DNA of 53,799 nt from Desulfobacterales bacterium. GTDB lineage: Bacteria; Desulfobacterota; Desulfobacteria; Desulfobacterales; SURF-7. This document shows, piece after piece, positions 42,610 to 53,799 of this stretch. The notes under the pieces are model-generated. The model saw only the letters and a list, made by a program, of their open reading frames with translations, had not been told where the DNA came from and searched no databases. The stretch is from positions 1-53,799 of the forward strand of contig JABHLN010000010.1 in assembly GCA_018693105.1 (NCBI GenBank). Direction: 5' to 3'. Both the position numbers and the translations under genes were made by a program. Every line of letters begins with the position of its first letter. The first letter of the stretch is position 1.

Positions 42610-43302
42610 ATGGGAGGGCTTTTACTGGAAGGTGGCTCAGAGTTTCAGGGGCAGATGGATGAACCTGACCGTCAGGCTATTGCCCTTACAGGCAAGAAAG
42701 AAGCGGAGATCTGTATTATACCAACCGCTGCAGCACCGGACAACAATCATATAAACGCAGGGGAAAATGGCGTTCGCTGGTTTCAGTCCCTTGGTGTAAA
42801 AAATATCAGAAGTCTTCCTATAATTGATACCGCATCAGCAAACGATACAACTCTGGCAGAAATCCTGATAAATACAGATTTGATTTATTTCCTTGGCGGA
42901 TATCCCGATTATCTGGAAGAAAGTTTGCGGGAAACTCTCTGCTGGTCAGCAATTCTTGAAGCATATAAAAGGGGTGCGGTACTGGCAGGCAGCAGTGCAG
43001 GAGCCATGGTCATGTGTGAATGGTTTTTCAATCCTGAAAGCAAAGAACTTCAGCCCGGCCTGGGAGTAATTCCAAATATGATTGTCATTCCACACCACGA
43101 GAACATTGGCAAACAATGGAGTGGAATCATCCAAAATCAATTGCCTGATATTACTATTGTCGGAATTGACGAACAGACCGGAATGCTTCGGAAGCATGAA
43201 GATGATAACTGGAATGTCTACGGAAAAGGATCTATAACCGTTTATCAGAGAAATAATATTATAGAATATACTACCGAGAGTTCCTCATTTAGTTTACAAT
43301 AG
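42610..43302 (+). CDS. Cyanophycinase-like / peptidase S51 family protein
   Basis: LLLEGGSEFQ, DLIYFLGGYPD, VLAGSSAGAMVM (Ser nucleophile). Confidence 0.82.
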   Translation: MGGLLLEGGSEFQGQMDEPDRQAIALTGKKEAEICIIPTAAAPDNNHINAGENGVRWFQSLGVKNIRSLPIIDTASANDTTLAEILINTDLIYFLGGYPDYLEESLRETLCWSAILEAYKRGAVLAGSSAGAMVMCEWFFNPESKELQPGLGVIPNMIVIPHHENIGKQWSGIIQNQLPDITIVGIDEQTGMLRKHEDDNWNVYGKGSITVYQRNNIIEYTTESSSFSLQ

Positions 43303-43423
43303 CTGGATGGATATAACCGACTAACAAAATAAGTATTGATTTTATTAGACAATACTACTTAATATTAACTTAAGTAATCCAATAATAAAGAGAACATTTT
43401 GCAATGATTTCTAAGGATTTGCC

Positions 43424-44683
43424 ATGACCGCAGGAAAAGGCCGGATAGTTTTAATGGGTTCGGGTGAGCTGACATCTACCATGGTGGGTGTCCATAAGCA
43501 GATGCTTTCATTAAAGGAAGGTTCGCCGAAAGCAGTATTTCTAGATACTCCTGCAGGATTTCAACTTAATGCAGATGAGATATCTAAAAAAGCTGTGGAG
43601 TATTTTCTCCATAACATCCGTCACCCAATGTCCATAGTGTCTTTTAAATCCGCTGAAACCTCAACAGAGTTTGAGGTTGAAACCGCTTATCGCCAGCTGA
43701 AAGAAGCTGATTATTTTTTAATCGGGCCCGGCAGTCCCACCTACACAGTTTTAAATCTTCAACATACAAACATTCCCGATATCATTATAAAAGGTGTTGA
43801 ATCCGGAGCATGCCTGACTGCTGCCAGCGCAGCAGCATTAACAGTCGGCAGTCATACCCTTCCTGTTTATGAAATTTATAAGGTAGGCCAAAGTCTTCAC
43901 TGGATTGACGGGCTTGATATCCTGTCTCATTTTGGTTTTAACATGGTGGTAATTCCCCACTGGAACAACGCCGAGGGCGGCACGCATGATACGAGGTTCT
44001 GCTATATGGGCGGCTCACGTTTTGAAAAACTCAAGGCATTGCTGCCAAAAGACACAATATTTGTCGGTCTTGATGAGCACACCGCCTGTATTATGGATCT
44101 GGAAACACAAACTGCGGAAATCAGGGGGTTGGGAAATATCACCATCCAACAAGGAAGCAGGGAATTATCTTTCGGGAAGGGAGAAACAATTCCTTTACAA
44201 GTATTCAAAGAAGGAATCAAGCAGTCTCCGAAGAAATCAAATACCCAAACCAAATTTAATGATGTGAAAAATATTGAAAAGAAAGAAAATTCTTTTTGGG
44301 AAAACATACATCAGCTTGAAGAAGTATTTCGGAAGGGACTGGAAGAAAACGATTCTAAAAAGATGACCAGTGCATTGCTTGATTTAGATAGTACGCTATG
44401 GAAAGCCGAAAGTACTATGGAAAGCGCGGAAAACATATCTCAGGTCCGGGAAATACTGCGTGAACTGATTGTAGTTTTAGGGGTTGAAATGGACAACAGA
44501 CCCGGTAGTTTTGAATCAGTAATGAATCCATTGGTTTCCCGTCTGCTTGATTTACGTGAGGATTACAGAAAAGAAAAAAGATGGGCAGATTCTGACCAAA
44601 TAAGAGATATACTGTATCAATGCAATGTCATTGTTGAAGATACAAAAGACGGACAAAAATGGCGAGTGATCAATAAGCAATAA
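43424..44683 (+). CDS. S51-like/type-1 GATase-like domain fused to a C-terminal CysRS (DALR_2-type) domain
   Basis: N-terminal GRIVLMGSGELTSTM...YFLIGPGSPTYT...CLTAASAAAL. C-terminal LRELIVVLGVEMDNRPGSFESVMNPLVSRLLDLREDYRKEKRWADSDQIRDILYQCNVIVEDTKDGQKWRV matches the CysRS C-terminus pattern. Confidence 0.8.
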   Translation: MTAGKGRIVLMGSGELTSTMVGVHKQMLSLKEGSPKAVFLDTPAGFQLNADEISKKAVEYFLHNIRHPMSIVSFKSAETSTEFEVETAYRQLKEADYFLIGPGSPTYTVLNLQHTNIPDIIIKGVESGACLTAASAAALTVGSHTLPVYEIYKVGQSLHWIDGLDILSHFGFNMVVIPHWNNAEGGTHDTRFCYMGGSRFEKLKALLPKDTIFVGLDEHTACIMDLETQTAEIRGLGNITIQQGSRELSFGKGETIPLQVFKEGIKQSPKKSNTQTKFNDVKNIEKKENSFWENIHQLEEVFRKGLEENDSKKMTSALLDLDSTLWKAESTMESAENISQVREILRELIVVLGVEMDNRPGSFESVMNPLVSRLLDLREDYRKEKRWADSDQIRDILYQCNVIVEDTKDGQKWRVINKQ

Positions 44684-44789
44684 GAGTTGCTTGAAAAGGT
44701 AGTAAAACATTTATAATATAATCGTGCTGAATACACTGCTAAAAGCCCCGACAGTCAGTACGGTTTTTATCCAGGTCAAATAAAATCAT

Positions 44790-45809
44790 ATGTGCCCCAA
44801 CAAGAAATTGGAACAAATACACATATCTTCTATCTCAATGGTAGAGCTTGAAAATATCTATAATGACACCGGACAAAAGCTGAACTGGGATTGTCTGTTT
44901 GTTCTTCCATTCTGGTTGAAAAACTGGTGGCAGGTATTTGGAGCCGGTAAAAAACTGGCGATTTTAGCTGTAAGGTCAGACACATCATCAATTATTTGTC
45001 TGGCTCCTTTCATGATAGAGGAAAATACTGCAAAATTTATAGGCAGTGAATCTGTCTGTGATTATCAGGATATTATTATTGCTGACAAATTTCCTGATGA
45101 CCTTTTTTTACTTCTCCTTGAACACTTAAAAAAAATGGGTGTTAGCCGCATCGAGCTTGGAGCCCTGCATCCTGATTCAAAAGCATTGACAGGGTTTTCA
45201 CAAGCAGCAAAGAAGTCCGGTTATCATTCTTCTTACGACGAAGCAGAAAAATTTTATAAACTGGATCTGCCGAAAACATGGGAAGAGTATCTTAATGTCT
45301 TAGACGGAAAACAGCGCCATGAGATTCGCCGGAAAATAAGAAGACTCAATGAAACCGGGCAAATTGACTACCAGATAGTCAATAACAAGGAAGCAGTAAA
45401 AGATGCTTTTGATGAATTTCTTTCATTATTTCAGACCAGCAGAAAAGATAAGGCTGAATTTTTAACTGACCGGATGAATTCTTTTTTTACATCCCTTGCA
45501 AAGACAATGGCAGAACATGACATGCTGCAGCTCGGGTTTTTGCGTGTTGATGGCAGGGTAGCAGCAGCAACTTTATGTTTTGAATATGGAAATACCGTTT
45601 TCTTATACAATAACGGGTATAACCCGGAATTTCGAAATCTGAGCGCCGGCCTTCTCGGTAAAATTTTCAGTATTAAACATAATATCGAAAAAAAAATAGC
45701 ATGTTATAATTTTTTAAAAGGGGATGAAGCATACAAAAAAAGACTGGGGGGTCAGCCTTTACCGTTGTATCGCCTTACCATTGAATTGAAATATACGGGT
45801 TTTAAATGA
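44790..45809 (+). CDS. GNAT-superfamily FemAB/BioF2-like (Acetyltransf_6) transferase
   Basis: RHEIRRKIRRL, GRVAAATLCFEYGNTVFLYNNGYNPEFRNLSAGLLG, YNFLKGDEAYKKRLGG. Confidence 0.82.
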   Translation: MCPNKKLEQIHISSISMVELENIYNDTGQKLNWDCLFVLPFWLKNWWQVFGAGKKLAILAVRSDTSSIICLAPFMIEENTAKFIGSESVCDYQDIIIADKFPDDLFLLLLEHLKKMGVSRIELGALHPDSKALTGFSQAAKKSGYHSSYDEAEKFYKLDLPKTWEEYLNVLDGKQRHEIRRKIRRLNETGQIDYQIVNNKEAVKDAFDEFLSLFQTSRKDKAEFLTDRMNSFFTSLAKTMAEHDMLQLGFLRVDGRVAAATLCFEYGNTVFLYNNGYNPEFRNLSAGLLGKIFSIKHNIEKKIACYNFLKGDEAYKKRLGGQPLPLYRLTIELKYTGFK

Positions 45810-47083
45810 CCAACAACATTAAACACGAAAAATCAATCGATTCAAATGATGTCCTCAAAATTGCAATGCTCAGTATTCACTCAAGCCCTGTAGGTGAACT
45901 GGGGACCAGCGATACCGGCGGCATGAGTGTTTATATCAGGGAACTGGCCGAAGAGCTTGGTAAGACAGGAGTTTCAACAGATATTTTCACCCTGTGTCAG
46001 AATCGTCAATCTTCTTCTATTACTTCTCTTTATAAAAATGTTCGTCTGATCTATCTGAATATTAAAACCGACCAACCAATCATCAAAGAGACCCTCTTTG
46101 ATTATCTACCATCGGTGTTTGATGCCTTCAATGAGACTGTGACAAAAGACCAGACCGATTATGATAAGGCCGGGTATGATCTTATTCACAGCCATTACTG
46201 GCTTTCCGGAGTGCTCGGAAATCAAATAAAGCAAAAATACGACCTGCCTCATATAATAACCTTTCATACAACAGGCGCAGTTAAAAACCGGTTCTGTACA
46301 CAGGAATTGGAGCCGGATTTTCGTATTGAAAAGGAAAAAGGGCTGACCGCCGCCTGTGACAGAATCGTAGCATCCACGCAGAATGAAGCGCATGATTTGA
46401 TATCACTTTACAATGCAGAATCTGAAAAGATCAGTGTTGTTCCGGCAGGTGTCAACCTGGAACTTTTTAAACCTTTAGATAAGACCGCTGCATGCCGGGA
46501 AATAGACTTTAATGATGATGCGAAGCTGCTTTTGTATGTTGGCCGTCATGTCCCGGTAAAAGGGCTGGACCGCTTATTGAAAACCATTTCCGAAATCAGA
46601 AATAAAATCAGTTTACGACTACTGGTAATCGGTGGTGATGATGAAAATGAAAAACTGAAGTCTACGATCAAAGACTTAAATATTCAAAAGGAAGTGGATT
46701 TGTCAGGACGGAAGGACCAGAAGTTTTTACCGGCATACTACAGTGCCGCGGATATGCTGGTTGTACCGTCATACCATGAAAGTTTTTGTCTCGCAGGTCT
46801 TGAATCGCTTGCATGCGGAACACCGGTTGTCAGCACTCCGGTGGGCATTATGCCGACGATTATAAATAATAAAAACGGCTGTATCCTGACTGAAAATAAT
46901 GATAGTGCAATGGCTGAAGCTATTTTGCGGGTCGCAAATAACCATGACCGGGGTAACTACAGCCCAGCACAGATTCGGAACTCTGTAAAAGACTATTCAT
47001 GGGCAAACACGGCAGAATTGATGCTGGGAGAATATCATAGGGTTATAAGTAATTTTGATAACAAAAAAGGCGAAGGGAAATAA
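45806..47083 (+). CDS. Family-4 glycosyltransferase, MshA-like
   Basis: AMLSIHSSPVGELGTSDTGGMSVYIRELAEELGKTGVSTDIFT; YDLIHSHYWLSG; VPSYHESFCLAGLESLACGTPVV. Overlaps the previous gene by 4 bp. Confidence 0.88.
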   Translation: MTNNIKHEKSIDSNDVLKIAMLSIHSSPVGELGTSDTGGMSVYIRELAEELGKTGVSTDIFTLCQNRQSSSITSLYKNVRLIYLNIKTDQPIIKETLFDYLPSVFDAFNETVTKDQTDYDKAGYDLIHSHYWLSGVLGNQIKQKYDLPHIITFHTTGAVKNRFCTQELEPDFRIEKEKGLTAACDRIVASTQNEAHDLISLYNAESEKISVVPAGVNLELFKPLDKTAACREIDFNDDAKLLLYVGRHVPVKGLDRLLKTISEIRNKISLRLLVIGGDDENEKLKSTIKDLNIQKEVDLSGRKDQKFLPAYYSAADMLVVPSYHESFCLAGLESLACGTPVVSTPVGIMPTIINNKNGCILTENNDSAMAEAILRVANNHDRGNYSPAQIRNSVKDYSWANTAELMLGEYHRVISNFDNKKGEGK

Positions 47084-47085
47084 CT

Positions 47086-47781
47086 TTGGAAAACAAGACT
47101 GATTATATGATAATTTCCGCTCATCCGGATGACGCAGAATTCGGAGTTGCCGGATCGGTTGCAAAATGGACGTCAGACGGCAAAAAGGTAGCTTATATTG
47201 TTTGTACCAGCGGTGACAAGGGGAGCAGTGATCCTGATATGAATCCCCAGGAACTGGCAATAATCCGTGAGGAAGAGCAGAAACAGGCAGCTAAGCTTCT
47301 GGGGGTCGGTATAGTCGAGTTTTTAAGATATCCGGACCAGGAGCTCGAAGACACACCCGATTTCCGGAAACATATTGTACGAATGATTAGAATATACAAG
47401 CCGGAGATCATTATTACTATGGACCCCTATCGAAAATACATCTGGCACAGGGACCATCGCATTACCGGCCAGACAACACTTGACTCGATATATCCTTATG
47501 CCCGGGATCATATGGCATACCCGGATTTAATTGATGAAGGTATAATGCCGCACAAGTCAAAAGAAATCTGGTTCTGGGGGACGGAAGATATTAACCATAC
47601 TCTTGATATTACCAAAACCATGGATACCAAACTGGCAGCTTTGTTTTGCCATAAAAGCCAGATGGAGTCTATGGGAACTGAAAACATTGAAAAGTGGGTG
47701 AAAAATAAATGTCAGGAGATAGCAGAAGGTACCGGTTTTACTTACGCGGAAGGGTTTCATCGTGTGAAAATTCCGCTATAG
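47086..47781 (+). CDS. PIG-L/LmbE-family deacetylase (MshB/BshB-like), TTG start
   Basis: MIISAHPDDAEFGVAGSVAKWTSDGKKVAYIVCTSGDKGSSDPD; WHRDHRITGQ. Confidence 0.9.
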   Translation: MENKTDYMIISAHPDDAEFGVAGSVAKWTSDGKKVAYIVCTSGDKGSSDPDMNPQELAIIREEEQKQAAKLLGVGIVEFLRYPDQELEDTPDFRKHIVRMIRIYKPEIIITMDPYRKYIWHRDHRITGQTTLDSIYPYARDHMAYPDLIDEGIMPHKSKEIWFWGTEDINHTLDITKTMDTKLAALFCHKSQMESMGTENIEKWVKNKCQEIAEGTGFTYAEGFHRVKIPL

Positions 47782-47784
47782 CTC

Positions 47785-48429
47785 CTACCATAAAGGGCTA
47801 TTTATAAAAGGCGGTGCTGCATATGATACTTTCGGAATTTCTTCCATATCAGTTGTTTGATAAGTCAGTGTGGTGATAGATCCTGTTGCCGGATAATTCT
47901 TAACGACACCAATTTTATTTAAATTTAATTTGTTTTCAGCGGTAACAGGGATATTGTTTGCCAGGAAAATGGCAAACAGGACAACATCTCCATGGGTAAC
48001 AGCTGCAACATGCCGCCTAAAATGATTTTTCCGTATACGATAGATAAATTTTTGCACCCGCCGAATCACATCTTCAGGCTGTTCATATTTCTGATCCTTT
48101 CCGGCATAAACATCCAATGCATATCGGGCAAGCATTTCGTTCGGCTTACCCTGAAACATGGAAAAAACTTCAGTAATCAAAGAGGATATTTTTAATTTAA
48201 AACCGGGATGGAGTCTAAGGATTTCATTTGCTGTCTGACGGGCACGGAGCAAGGGACTGCTGTAAACACAATCGATAGGGCTGCCTTTTAGAACCTCAGA
48301 TACCAGCAAGGCTTCTTTCTGACCGTTTATATCAAGTTTAAACCCCGGAAGCCGCCCGTAAAAGATATCATCAGGATTATCTACATTACCGTGACGGATA
48401 AAAGATATGCGGGTAATAGATTTATTAAT
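47785..48429 (-). CDS. Histidine phosphatase family (phosphoglycerate-mutase-like) protein, probably starting at a non-canonical ATT codon
   Basis: The track ORF starts too late. In-frame upstream sequence restores SITRISFIRHGNVDNPDDIFYGRLPGFKLDINGQKEALLVSEV (RHG motif). ATT at 48429-48427 is preceded by AAAGGA and sits at the end of the upstream gene. Confidence 0.8.
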   Translation of the reverse strand: MNKSITRISFIRHGNVDNPDDIFYGRLPGFKLDINGQKEALLVSEVLKGSPIDCVYSSPLLRARQTANEILRLHPGFKLKISSLITEVFSMFQGKPNEMLARYALDVYAGKDQKYEQPEDVIRRVQKFIYRIRKNHFRRHVAAVTHGDVVLFAIFLANNIPVTAENKLNLNKIGVVKNYPATGSITTLTYQTTDMEEIPKVSYAAPPFINSPLW

Positions 48430-49528
48430 TATACAAATCCTTTGATATAAACTTTTCGATCATGGAAAACGCAGTATCATCTGTATATTGAGCAGGTGGT
48501 CGTTTGCAGTATAAGGCAGATGGCCCCTCTAGGACTCCGCCGATATTCCTGTCTAAAGCCAGCTTGCATAGGCGAATGCAGTCAATTACTGCACCTGCAG
48601 AATTCGGAGAATCTTCAACTGATAACCGCAGCTCAAGATCCATGGGTACATTGCCGAAGATGCGGCCTTCCATTCTTATAAAAGCCACCTTTTTGTCATT
48701 CAGCCATGGGACATAGTCACTGGGGCCTATATGGATATTCCTATCATCCGGTTTTTCTTTCATGACAGATTTTACAGCTTCGGTTTTGGACAGTTTCTTG
48801 GAAGACAACCGGTTTTGATCCTTCATATTTAAAAAATCGGTATTTCCGCCGGTGTTCAACTGATACGTGTTGTCTATTTTCACGCCCCGCTTTGCAAACA
48901 AATTGGCAAGAGAGCGGTGGATAATCGTTGCACCCATTTGTGATTTAACATCATCACCAATTATAGGGATTTTTGCTCTTTGAAACTTTTCAGCCCATTC
49001 CGGATCACCTGCAATAAACACAGGAATGTTGTTAATCAATGCAACCCCGGCTTCCAATGCGCACTCCGAGTAAAACCGGGTGGCTTTTTCAGATCCCACC
49101 GGCAGATAATTCAACAATATTTCAGTTCCGGAATCCTTCAGGATTTTGATGATCTCTTTTTTGTCAGGCTCGGGTTGGTCAGCAGGGACAAACGTATACT
49201 CTTCATCAAAATTTTTCATATGATCTGCACAACCATCTAAAACTGCTCCCATAGATACTTTAACTCTTGAAGGCGGTATTTTTTCAGCGAATTTTACTGT
49301 ACAATTAGGCGGTTGAAAAATAGCTTCATGAACATCTTTTCCAATTTTTCTCCGATCAATATCAAATGCTGATGATACAATAATATCCGAGGGGGTATAT
49401 CCGTTGATTTCCCAATACAGGAGACCAATAGATTCTTCTTTTGACCTATACCTGTAATATTCAATTCCCTGAAGCAGGGAACTTGCGCAATTACCGATAC
49501 CTACAATACCAATTTTTATGGGCTCCAT
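48425..49528 (-). CDS. ino1: Inositol-3-phosphate synthase (myo-inositol-1-phosphate synthase)
   Basis: MEPIKIGIVGIGNCASSLLQGIEYYR...GDDVKSQMGATIIHRSLANLFAKRGVKIDNTYQLNTGGNTDFLNM. Confidence 0.93.
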   Translation of the reverse strand: MEPIKIGIVGIGNCASSLLQGIEYYRYRSKEESIGLLYWEINGYTPSDIIVSSAFDIDRRKIGKDVHEAIFQPPNCTVKFAEKIPPSRVKVSMGAVLDGCADHMKNFDEEYTFVPADQPEPDKKEIIKILKDSGTEILLNYLPVGSEKATRFYSECALEAGVALINNIPVFIAGDPEWAEKFQRAKIPIIGDDVKSQMGATIIHRSLANLFAKRGVKIDNTYQLNTGGNTDFLNMKDQNRLSSKKLSKTEAVKSVMKEKPDDRNIHIGPSDYVPWLNDKKVAFIRMEGRIFGNVPMDLELRLSVEDSPNSAGAVIDCIRLCKLALDRNIGGVLEGPSALYCKRPPAQYTDDTAFSMIEKFISKDLYN

Positions 49529-51148: not shown

Positions 51149-51706
51149 TCATATATCCCATATAATCTTATTAATTATATCCTTAATTGAAGGGACCCCG
51201 TATTTCGCTTGCGATTCACGAAGCAGGAATGAATCTGGGTTACCGGCCCCTAAAATACTACGTCCTCTTGCCAGATATCCCAGCTTTTTCTTTACTGTTT
51301 TTAGAAAATAATTATTCCCAACACCTATACTTTCTTTCCATTTGTTGTCACGAACCAGGTTTCTATTCTTTAGCTCTTCTTCGACCCATTTGTGATGAGA
51401 TTCCTTCAGTACTTCATAATTATCAAATTGCAGGAATTTCATAAGGATAGCAAAGTCTATAATACTATACCTTATTGAATTTGGAATTACATTTTTTTCT
51501 CCGTTGTCGAAAACAAGAAGATGGATATGGTTTGAAGTAATGATATAATTTAAAACACTCAAACCATAACGTTTCTTTGTTTGAAACAACCAGTCTATCC
51601 ATCGCTGACGGTCTTTCACAAGCTTTAGTAGGAAGTCCCTTTTATGGCATCTATGGGTGATATGCCAGACATAGCCTAGTATGAAATGCCTTTTGGCACG
51701 TGCCAT
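51149..51706 (-). CDS. REP-associated tyrosine transposase (RAYT, IS200/Y1-like)
   Basis: MARAKRHFILGYVWHITHRCHKRDFLL...YIITSNHIHLLVFD: Y1 HUH motif (HIHLL). Confidence 0.87.
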   Translation of the reverse strand: MARAKRHFILGYVWHITHRCHKRDFLLKLVKDRQRWIDWLFQTKKRYGLSVLNYIITSNHIHLLVFDNGEKNVIPNSIRYSIIDFAILMKFLQFDNYEVLKESHHKWVEEELKNRNLVRDNKWKESIGVGNNYFLKTVKKKLGYLARGRSILGAGNPDSFLLRESQAKYGVPSIKDIINKIIWDI

Positions 51707-52380: not shown

Positions 52381-53799
52381 TTACTCACATGGGCTATTAA
52401 TGAGTGTATCAGATCTATATAGAATCGCACCTAGTCCTAAGCCAGCAAAAAAACTCCCGGCACTTGCTCCAGGCCTTATAACACTGGCTGCTTTGCCTAA
52501 ATTCCCTATTAACCCGCCTAAATACCCTCCTAATGCTCCACTTGCAACACTATTAACAATATCAGCAAAATCTCCACCTAAAGCTATACTTGATAAGCCC
52601 CCAACAAGTGCACCTGCAACTGCACCTGCGGCAGGTGTTCCAATCGCAGAGGCAGCTATTGAAGCGATAGAGCTTGCCATTGTTATACCAGCATTTTGTC
52701 TATCAGTTAGTTTTAATCCCAAAGGATCAATCAAATTAACCGGATCATTTAGGACATAACCATAAAGGTCAGAATCCCCACCAGCAAAGCCAATTGGATC
52801 TTTGGCTGTCCATCTTCCAATTTCAGGATCATAATCTCTTGCACCGAATCTTACCAGCCTGGTATCCTGATCGTACAAACCACCTGCAAAGCCGAATGGT
52901 ATTTCAAAAGTTTCATCAGAATCATTAAGAATATATCCGAATGTATCATACTCTATTGTTTTTATAACAATTCCTGCTGAATCTATAACTGCTTTCAATG
53001 TACCGACCTGATCATAGATACAATAATATAAAATACCACCTTTTACCATGGAAATCGGCGTTCTACTGTCAGTGTATTCAAAACGCATCATAAGATTGTC
53101 TGATCCGTCATAAATCGCAAGGAGTGTTGTAGCCCCGTACCAAAGATATTTTTCGGTAATTGTCCCGTTAACTTTTTTGGCAATTCTTCTTCCAAGAGGA
53201 TCATGGACATACCCTATCACAGTATTATCAGGAAGGGTAACTTCTTGAAGCTCTCCGCGTGATGAATAGCTGTATGATGTTGTTTCTGTACCTTTAACTT
53301 TTGTAGTAAGGTAGCCATCTTCATTATAGGTATAAGATGTATCATCAGTATTAAGAAGACGATCCTCCTCGTCATAAGAAAGGTATTCAGATGAAATTCC
53401 CCTAAGGTCGTTAGTTCTATACGTACAGGTTCCATAAGGAACATTTGAATAATCATAAGTCTCAACAATAACATTGTTTTTGGCTGCAGTCTCAAGTCTG
53501 CCATTGTCATCGTAAGTATAATTATAAGTGTCGGTCATTCCAGCTATTGTTTCAGTTTTTTCCAAAATTCGACCCGCAAGATCACGACTTATAACATCCC
53601 ACGAACCAACACTTACACTATTCACAAGATAGTTTTCACCATCTGCTTTTCCATAATTGTTAAATGAACGCTCAAGAGAAAAATCTCCTTTGCTAACTTT
53701 ATCCGGCAAGCCGTTATCAGGTTTTCTGCTGATAGTATAGTTACCGACACCGGTTATAAGTCCGTCGTTATCATAGTTATAAGTCTCTGTTGTTCCGGC
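52381..53799 (-). CDS. RHS repeat-associated core domain protein, N-terminus beyond the right edge
   Basis: YD repeats (TYNYTYDDNGRLETAAKN...), core motif YDPEIGRWTAKDPIGFAGGDSDLYGYVLNDPVNLIDPLG, then a variable Gly/Ala-rich tail. The frame is open to the window end. Confidence 0.92.
   Translation of the reverse strand, partial: AGTTETYNYDNDGLITGVGNYTISRKPDNGLPDKVSKGDFSLERSFNNYGKADGENYLVNSVSVGSWDVISRDLAGRILEKTETIAGMTDTYNYTYDDNGRLETAAKNNVIVETYDYSNVPYGTCTYRTNDLRGISSEYLSYDEEDRLLNTDDTSYTYNEDGYLTTKVKGTETTSYSYSSRGELQEVTLPDNTVIGYVHDPLGRRIAKKVNGTITEKYLWYGATTLLAIYDGSDNLMMRFEYTDSRTPISMVKGGILYYCIYDQVGTLKAVIDSAGIVIKTIEYDTFGYILNDSDETFEIPFGFAGGLYDQDTRLVRFGARDYDPEIGRWTAKDPIGFAGGDSDLYGYVLNDPVNLIDPLGLKLTDRQNAGITMASSIASIAASAIGTPAAGAVAGALVGGLSSIALGGDFADIVNSVASGALGGYLGGLIGNLGKAASVIRPGASAGSFFAGLGLGAILYRSDTLINSPCE

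Follow-up and report, generated by a model that had tools for sequence, protein, structure and literature searches.

A conserved gene cluster in Desulfobacterota, Nitrospirota and soda-lake genomes as a candidate mycothiol-like inositol-glucosamine pathway

In Actinobacteria the thiol mycothiol is made by Ino1, the glycosyltransferase MshA, a phosphatase, MshB (a deacetylase of the PIG-L family), MshC (derived from cysteinyl-tRNA synthetase, CysRS) and the GNAT-type enzyme MshD. To our knowledge, the phosphatase of this route is still unidentified, and it is not settled which is the main redox thiol in many sulfate reducers and related bacteria. According to a published survey the mshA-D genes are reported only in Actinobacteria (PMC6282198). 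Here we describe a locus at positions 42610-49528 of a 53,799-nt stretch from a Desulfobacterales bacterium (contig JABHLN010000010.1, assembly GCA_018693105.1; the whole stretch is called the window), in which relatives of the mycothiol genes stand next to a FemAB-like transferase and an S51-type hydrolase fused to a CysRS-like tail (Table 1). No earlier description of this cluster or pathway was found in the open-access papers searched.

We read the cluster as a pathway for an inositol-glucosamine conjugate, and its genes suggest that the product is most likely a mycothiol-like low-molecular-weight thiol (probability about 0.55). The first-pass annotation of this DNA had proposed an inositol-glucosamine pathway with MshC replaced. 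This core idea is borne out by the conservation of the cluster, the co-occurrence of its genes and the lack of MshC, whereas the thiol product is something that we infer. Gene content, conservation, co-occurrence and the likeness of folds and binding pockets are observed, and from these we infer the reactions as follows. Ino1 would convert glucose-6-phosphate to inositol phosphate, the MshA-like glycosyltransferase would transfer N-acetylglucosamine (GlcNAc) from UDP-GlcNAc onto it, a histidine phosphatase (in other lineages a HAD phosphatase) would take off the phosphate, and the PIG-L protein would deacetylate the product to glucosamine (GlcN)-inositol. The FemAB-like transferase would then aminoacylate the free amine, probably with cysteine from Cys-tRNA. 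The fusion protein would probably bind tRNA-Cys via its CysRS-like tail and either help the cysteine step or hydrolyse a product or conjugate. An MshD-like enzyme, present in some lineages, would finally N-acetylate the cysteine.

The cluster is almost certainly one conserved pathway and not a chance grouping. In 241 genomes of the class, high-scoring copies of the fusion were found in 32 (two of them partial matches), the glycosyltransferase in 31 (E <= 1e-60) and the FemAB-like gene in 32 (E <= 1e-40). The glycosyltransferase and the fusion occur together in 29 genomes, three having the fusion without the glycosyltransferase and two the reverse (Fisher p 1e-31, relatedness ignored). The FemAB-like gene and the fusion occur together in 30 (Fisher p 1e-33, shared ancestry ignored; the positive genomes span many families), and every genome with the glycosyltransferase also has FemAB (31/31). 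Where a fusion genome lacks the glycosyltransferase or FemAB, contig ends or fragmented assemblies are involved. As to the two genomes with the glycosyltransferase and no fusion, in G158 the start of the contig cuts where the fusion would lie, and G030 is a real exception, with the glycosyltransferase, FemAB, PIG-L, phosphatase and MshD-like genes all present. Ino1 was found in 28/32 fusion genomes vs 68/209 of the others (p 3e-9).

The same picture emerges from the neighbourhoods, for which about 20 kb around 31 of the 32 fusion loci was considered. The neighbours seen in the window recur in most of these loci, typically in the order S51a (a second S51-type gene), fusion, two optional Gfo/Idh/MocA genes, FemAB, glycosyltransferase and PIG-L; in many cases a histidine phosphatase and ino1 converge with this set. 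A scan of the collection gave 364 related loci; the best 80 of these, the named loci, come chiefly from Desulfobacterota and Nitrospirota metagenome-assembled genomes (MAGs), plus soda-lake MAGs labelled Syntrophomonadaceae. In 46 of the named loci the sequence continues for at least 8 kb past the fusion; of these, 41 have FemAB, 41 the glycosyltransferase and 36 PIG-L. S51a was seen on the upstream side of the fusion in 25/80 named loci. The first-pass annotation had suggested looking for ino1, the glycosyltransferase and PIG-L beside the fusion, and had taken unconserved neighbours as evidence against its proposal. The neighbours are in fact clearly conserved: the set is kept across three lineages and its genes co-occur genome-wide.

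The arrangement of the genes is variable. Relative to the rest of the set, ino1 is convergent in the window, co-directional in L051 and divergent from the fusion in L098 (a Nitrospirota MAG). In the soda-lake MAGs the fusion is isolated, and the glycosyltransferase lies elsewhere in the same genome in 4/6 of them; one of these MAGs (L196) has a full run of FemAB, glycosyltransferase, an MscS-like gene, PIG-L, a metallo-beta-lactamase (MBL) hydrolase and ino1, and in L200, L201 and L209 ino1, MBL and PIG-L are close to each other. That the same genes are found in differing arrangements points to a shared pathway. We note in passing that the MscS-type mechanosensitive channel-like gene inside the run, at L196:7733-8644, was judged by eye.

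No exopolysaccharide, flippase, polymerase, exosortase-type or glycolipid genes recur around the 31 loci, so the glycolipid or exopolysaccharide role that the first-pass annotation had named as evidence against itself finds no such genes accompanying the cluster. An ordinary polysaccharide locus is rejected on the same ground. It is true that GT4 enzymes, PF13480 GNAT proteins and PIG-L proteins are common in capsule-type clusters, and in an exopolysaccharide or cell-surface glycan locus the three would act on a polymer. But there is one glycosyltransferase only, the recurring neighbours include none of the flippase, polymerase or exosortase-type genes named above, and the set strictly co-occurs with a soluble CysRS-tail hydrolase, which makes a surface glycan extremely unlikely.

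The first steps of the proposed pathway (Ino1, glycosyltransferase, phosphatase, PIG-L) are well supported by inference, and it is quite probable, to judge from the sequences, that they yield GlcN-inositol or a close relative. The glycosyltransferase matches TIGR03449 (mycothiol_MshA) with 279 bits (cut-off 462.5), the next model being about 170 bits lower (107.5 bits). Its nearest solved structures are MshA of C. glutamicum (3c48/3c4q) and Tll1590, which we take to be a sucrose-phosphate synthase. In the alignment of the cluster glycosyltransferases to C. glutamicum MshA, K78 is kept in 24/26 sequences and Y110, T134 and R154 in 26/26; these four residues are presumably the inositol-phosphate contacts of MshA, and the two proteins without K78 come from genomes (G020 and G113) without a mycothiol-type ino1. 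The window Ino1, a single copy genome-wide, is above the cut-off of PF01658 and reaches 416 bits with TIGR03450 (mycothiol_INO1), under the equivalog cut-off of 638. The PIG-L protein scores 38 bits with TIGR03445 (MshB; cut-off 224) and higher, 92.7 bits, with the BshB1 model; its nearest solved structure is diacetylchitobiose deacetylase. As for the phosphatase, a HAD enzyme accompanies the cluster genes in about 14 cases and a histidine phosphatase in about 20 genomes, never both (chance about 0.01-0.05). This alternation of two unrelated families speaks for a step in which the phosphate is removed, as one would expect to follow a reaction of the MshA type.

The pairing of a GT4 enzyme with a PIG-L deacetylase is also the logic of glycosylphosphatidylinositol (GPI). 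One could thus imagine a GPI-like glycolipid, in which phosphatidylinositol receives GlcNAc, PIG-L removes the acetyl group and an acyl or aminoacyl group is then attached, as in the first steps of GPI anchors or in MprF lipids. FemAB resembles MprF by fold, and in the Nitrospirota MAG L208 (L208:5791-7494) ino1 adjoins a CDP-alcohol phosphotransferase-like gene, judged by eye, which suggests that inositol phosphate may also feed into inositol-lipid (phosphatidylinositol) synthesis. Still, no lipid or membrane-synthesis gene is kept across the clusters (the 31 loci and the named loci), the glycosyltransferase keeps the phosphate-pocket residues of MshA, and the conserved phosphatase step with its two alternating families would be needless for a phosphodiester lipid. 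We consider a glycolipid very unlikely.

The cysteine step would have to proceed without the known enzymes. MshC was found in 0/32 cluster genomes above the TIGR03447 cut-off, the matches being CysRS-like only, and BshC (PF10079) likewise in 0/32, while control genomes gave matches. An MshC hidden elsewhere in these genomes is rejected, since apart from ordinary CysRS the search brought up just a CysK-CysRS fusion, and neither was above the MshC cut-off. This CysK-CysRS fusion, a cysteine synthase joined to a CysRS-like protein, lies on contig C95 of the window genome (L163:1972-4248), which also has a separate ordinary CysRS, and its KMSKS motif is changed to KKVDEK; it is rejected as a cluster-specific missing ligase, as it occurs in 215/241 class genomes regardless of the cluster.

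The best candidate is the FemAB-like transferase. Its AlphaFold model (pLDDT 92) has the double-GNAT fold of Fem-type enzymes in a Foldseek comparison, the top matches being Sbb17, Sba18, FemX, FemA and MprF (E about 1e-12, TM 0.52-0.61). These best fold matches are aminoacyl-tRNA-dependent transferases, so the model probably supports a candidate tRNA-using role; moreover, the structures of Sbb17 and Sba18 were solved with an amino-sugar compound, streptothrisamine. K316, in the motif YKxRLGG, is invariant and is a tentative candidate for the counterpart of the catalytic lysines Lys305 of FemX and Lys329 of DhpH-C. GNAT-fold enzymes of this kind are documented to use aminoacyl-tRNA, and with Gly-tRNA as donor the Fem-like Orf11 aminoacylates an amino-sugar intermediate (PMC12945691, a review). 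The first-pass annotation had called the FemAB-like protein potentially aminoacyl-tRNA-using, and this suggestion is strengthened by the structural matches and by the absence of MshC and BshC. On the whole, we slightly favour the view that the pathway attaches cysteine; that this cysteine comes from tRNA is possible but somewhat doubtful.

The S51-CysRS-tail fusion is the other unusual component. Positions 322-464 of the cysS model match its residues 271-414, and CysS_C is above cut-off. In structural comparison the N-terminal part has the S51 fold (6nqc, TM 0.81 by target), and the tail matches the CysRS-tRNA complex 1u0b; the CysRS-like domain matches 1li5 as well. The triad residues S135, H179 and E218 and, in the tail, R378, D391, R394, D406, G410 and W413 are invariant in 22 relatives (R382 in 21/22); the tail residues presumably take part in tRNA contact. 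The fusion may recruit tRNA-Cys, deacylate it, or act as a conjugate amidase. Alternatively, the fusion could itself attach cysteine, as a serine acyl-enzyme formed from Cys-tRNA, and FemAB would then be the N-acyltransferase in the role of MshD. This would fit the fact that the fusion alone carries a CysRS-derived tail and has an invariant catalytic triad, and that FemAB is a GNAT-fold protein. It fits poorly with G030, which has the glycosyltransferase, FemAB, PIG-L, phosphatase and MshD-like genes and lacks the fusion, and with the clusters L081 and L097, where FemAB and an MshD-like gene are both present, so that FemAB is not simply MshD. In other words, the gene content of G030, L081 and L097 makes it unlikely that FemAB is merely an acetyltransferase, and we hold the fusion to be a decidedly unlikely ligase.

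Some genes join the cluster only in part of the lineages. In 6/241 genomes, five of them cluster-positive, there is a tandem-GNAT protein that matches MshD better than any other family (86 bits, cut-off 163), and its gene adjoins PIG-L and usually a glyoxalase-II-like (GloB-like) MBL hydrolase. The high-scoring form of the latter is present in 15/34 cluster genomes vs 0/34 others. MBL hydrolases as a plain cluster marker are rejected, since at a loose threshold they are general (50/68 genomes) and a link with the cluster is seen for the high-scoring form alone. About half of the related clusters, but not that of the window, have two Gfo/Idh/MocA genes separating the fusion from FemAB; in the example pair L033:6575-9306 the first protein is extended at its N-terminus by about 200 residues.

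These optional genes bear on whether the product is a thiol at all. If FemAB instead attached an acyl group or an amino acid other than cysteine, the product would be a non-thiol conjugate of an aminoglycoside-like or osmolyte-like kind. Cysteine is not required by Ino1, the glycosyltransferase, the phosphatase or PIG-L, Fem-like enzymes as a group accept many different aminoacyl-tRNAs, the Gfo/Idh dehydrogenases would suit the modification of inositol or sugar, and the MshD-like gene is found in just the few genomes given above. Against this, MshD-like and GloB-like genes do join the cluster, and the set is nearly always accompanied by a protein whose CysRS-derived tail speaks for cysteine. 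We regard a non-thiol conjugate as unlikely.

Several observations weigh against a mycothiol-like thiol. The scores of the glycosyltransferase, PIG-L, Ino1 and MshD-like proteins are all under the mycothiol and bacillithiol equivalog cut-offs, so the window proteins are relatives, not members, of the mycothiol families. FemAB resembles Fem-type enzymes at the fold level only, with 10-15% identity; tandem acetyltransferases match too, the double-GNAT fold may be common to the whole Acetyltransf_6 family, and no solved FemX was matched at the sequence level. The fusion is not needed in every genome, as G030 has the pathway genes without it, and four fusion-positive genomes, some of them incomplete, have no Ino1. 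The lipid-type neighbour of ino1 in L208 belongs here as well, and the proposed scheme assigns no role to the optional Gfo/Idh pair. Finally, the window genome has no MshD-like protein at E <= 1e-30. The first-pass annotation had supposed that every step except that of MshC could be supplied by these genes, which does not hold for MshD; in this genome one transferase would cover the cysteine addition, and acetylation would be absent or done otherwise.

In the window, the five plus strand genes (S51a, fusion, FemAB, glycosyltransferase, PIG-L) converge with the histidine phosphatase and ino1 on the minus strand. The glycosyltransferase gene overlaps FemAB by 4 bp and ends 2 bp before PIG-L. All seven genes, as judged by Pfam and NCBIfam matches, and these spacings agree with the first-pass annotation. 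The histidine phosphatase is a stop-to-stop frame with no ATG, GTG or TTG codon upstream of the catalytic RHG motif, so it may begin at ATT or ATA, overlapping or abutting ino1.

Table 1. Genes of the cluster in the window, with candidate functions and supporting matches
Feature	Positions	Strand	Evidence
S51a, cyanophycinase/dipeptidase-E-like serine hydrolase	42610-43302	+	Pfam Peptidase_S51 1.6e-18; GSSAGA nucleophile motif
S51-CysRS-tail fusion, S51-type hydrolase domain plus CysRS-like helical/anticodon-binding C-terminal domain	43424-44683	+	CysS_C 2.4e-07
FemAB/GNAT-like transferase, candidate aminoacyl-tRNA-dependent cysteinyltransferase	44790-45809	+	Acetyltransf_6 8.7e-30; FemAB_like 2.5e-08
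MshA-like GT4, candidate enzyme for GlcNAc transfer onto inositol phosphate	45806-47083	+	NCBIfam mycothiol_MshA 279 bits (top model)
PIG-L/LmbE deacetylase (TTG start), candidate GlcNAc-inositol deacetylase	47086-47781	+	Pfam PIG-L 1e-31; BshB1 92.7 bits
Histidine phosphatase open frame, candidate GlcNAc-inositol-phosphate phosphatase	47785-48459	-	His_Phos_1 1.9e-17; RHG motif
ino1, L-myo-inositol-1-phosphate synthase, mycothiol type	48425-49528	-	Inos-1-P_synth 1.4e-37; mycothiol_INO1 416 bits

Two further minus strand features of the window were judged by eye only: a protein like REP-associated (IS200-like) transposases at 51149-51706 and a YD-repeat/RHS-like protein fragment at 52381-53709.

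Taken further, the data would allow a new class of thiol biosynthesis, which we put forward only tentatively: a Fem-like transferase would add cysteine from Cys-tRNA to GlcN-inositol, with tRNA-Cys recruited by the S51-CysRS-tail protein, in Desulfobacterota, Nitrospirota and soda-lake "Syntrophomonadaceae" MAGs. The cluster predicts a specific inositol-glucosamine thiol outside Actinobacteria, with a candidate gene for each step including the phosphatase. We know of no other thiol cofactor with tRNA-derived cysteine, and if the cysteine does come from tRNA, this would be the first known to be made that way. The prediction is directly testable by ordinary thiol profiling and in vitro assays.

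Compared with known systems, the cluster is closest to the mycothiol pathway of Actinobacteria, with which it shares a mycothiol-type Ino1, an MshA-like glycosyltransferase with the same pocket residues, a phosphatase step, a PIG-L deacetylase and, in some lineages, an MshD-like gene. It differs in having the FemAB-like transferase and the S51-CysRS-tail fusion instead of MshC, in a PIG-L protein that is nearer to BshB1 than to MshB, and in occurring in other phyla. Bacillithiol synthesis likewise uses a GT4 enzyme followed by a BshB-like PIG-L deacetylase, and the proposed addition of cysteine to glucosamine is alike; however, the acceptor there is malate, whereas the cluster encodes an inositol phosphate synthase, its glycosyltransferase is nearer to MshA than to BshA, and the bacillithiol pathway is rejected because BshC is absent in 32/32 cluster genomes. 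With the Fem-like transferases (FemX, Orf11/Sba18/Sbb17, MprF) the cluster FemAB shares the double-GNAT-like fold, and it departs from them by its very low identity, by its proposed amino acid (cysteine) and acceptor (GlcN-inositol), and in that its use of tRNA is a candidate one. The fusion has the fold and the Ser-His-Glu residues of the S51 enzymes cyanophycinase and dipeptidase E, a family that S51a matches as well, and is set apart from them by its CysRS-like tail and the invariant motif PHWNNAEGG-HDTR-C.

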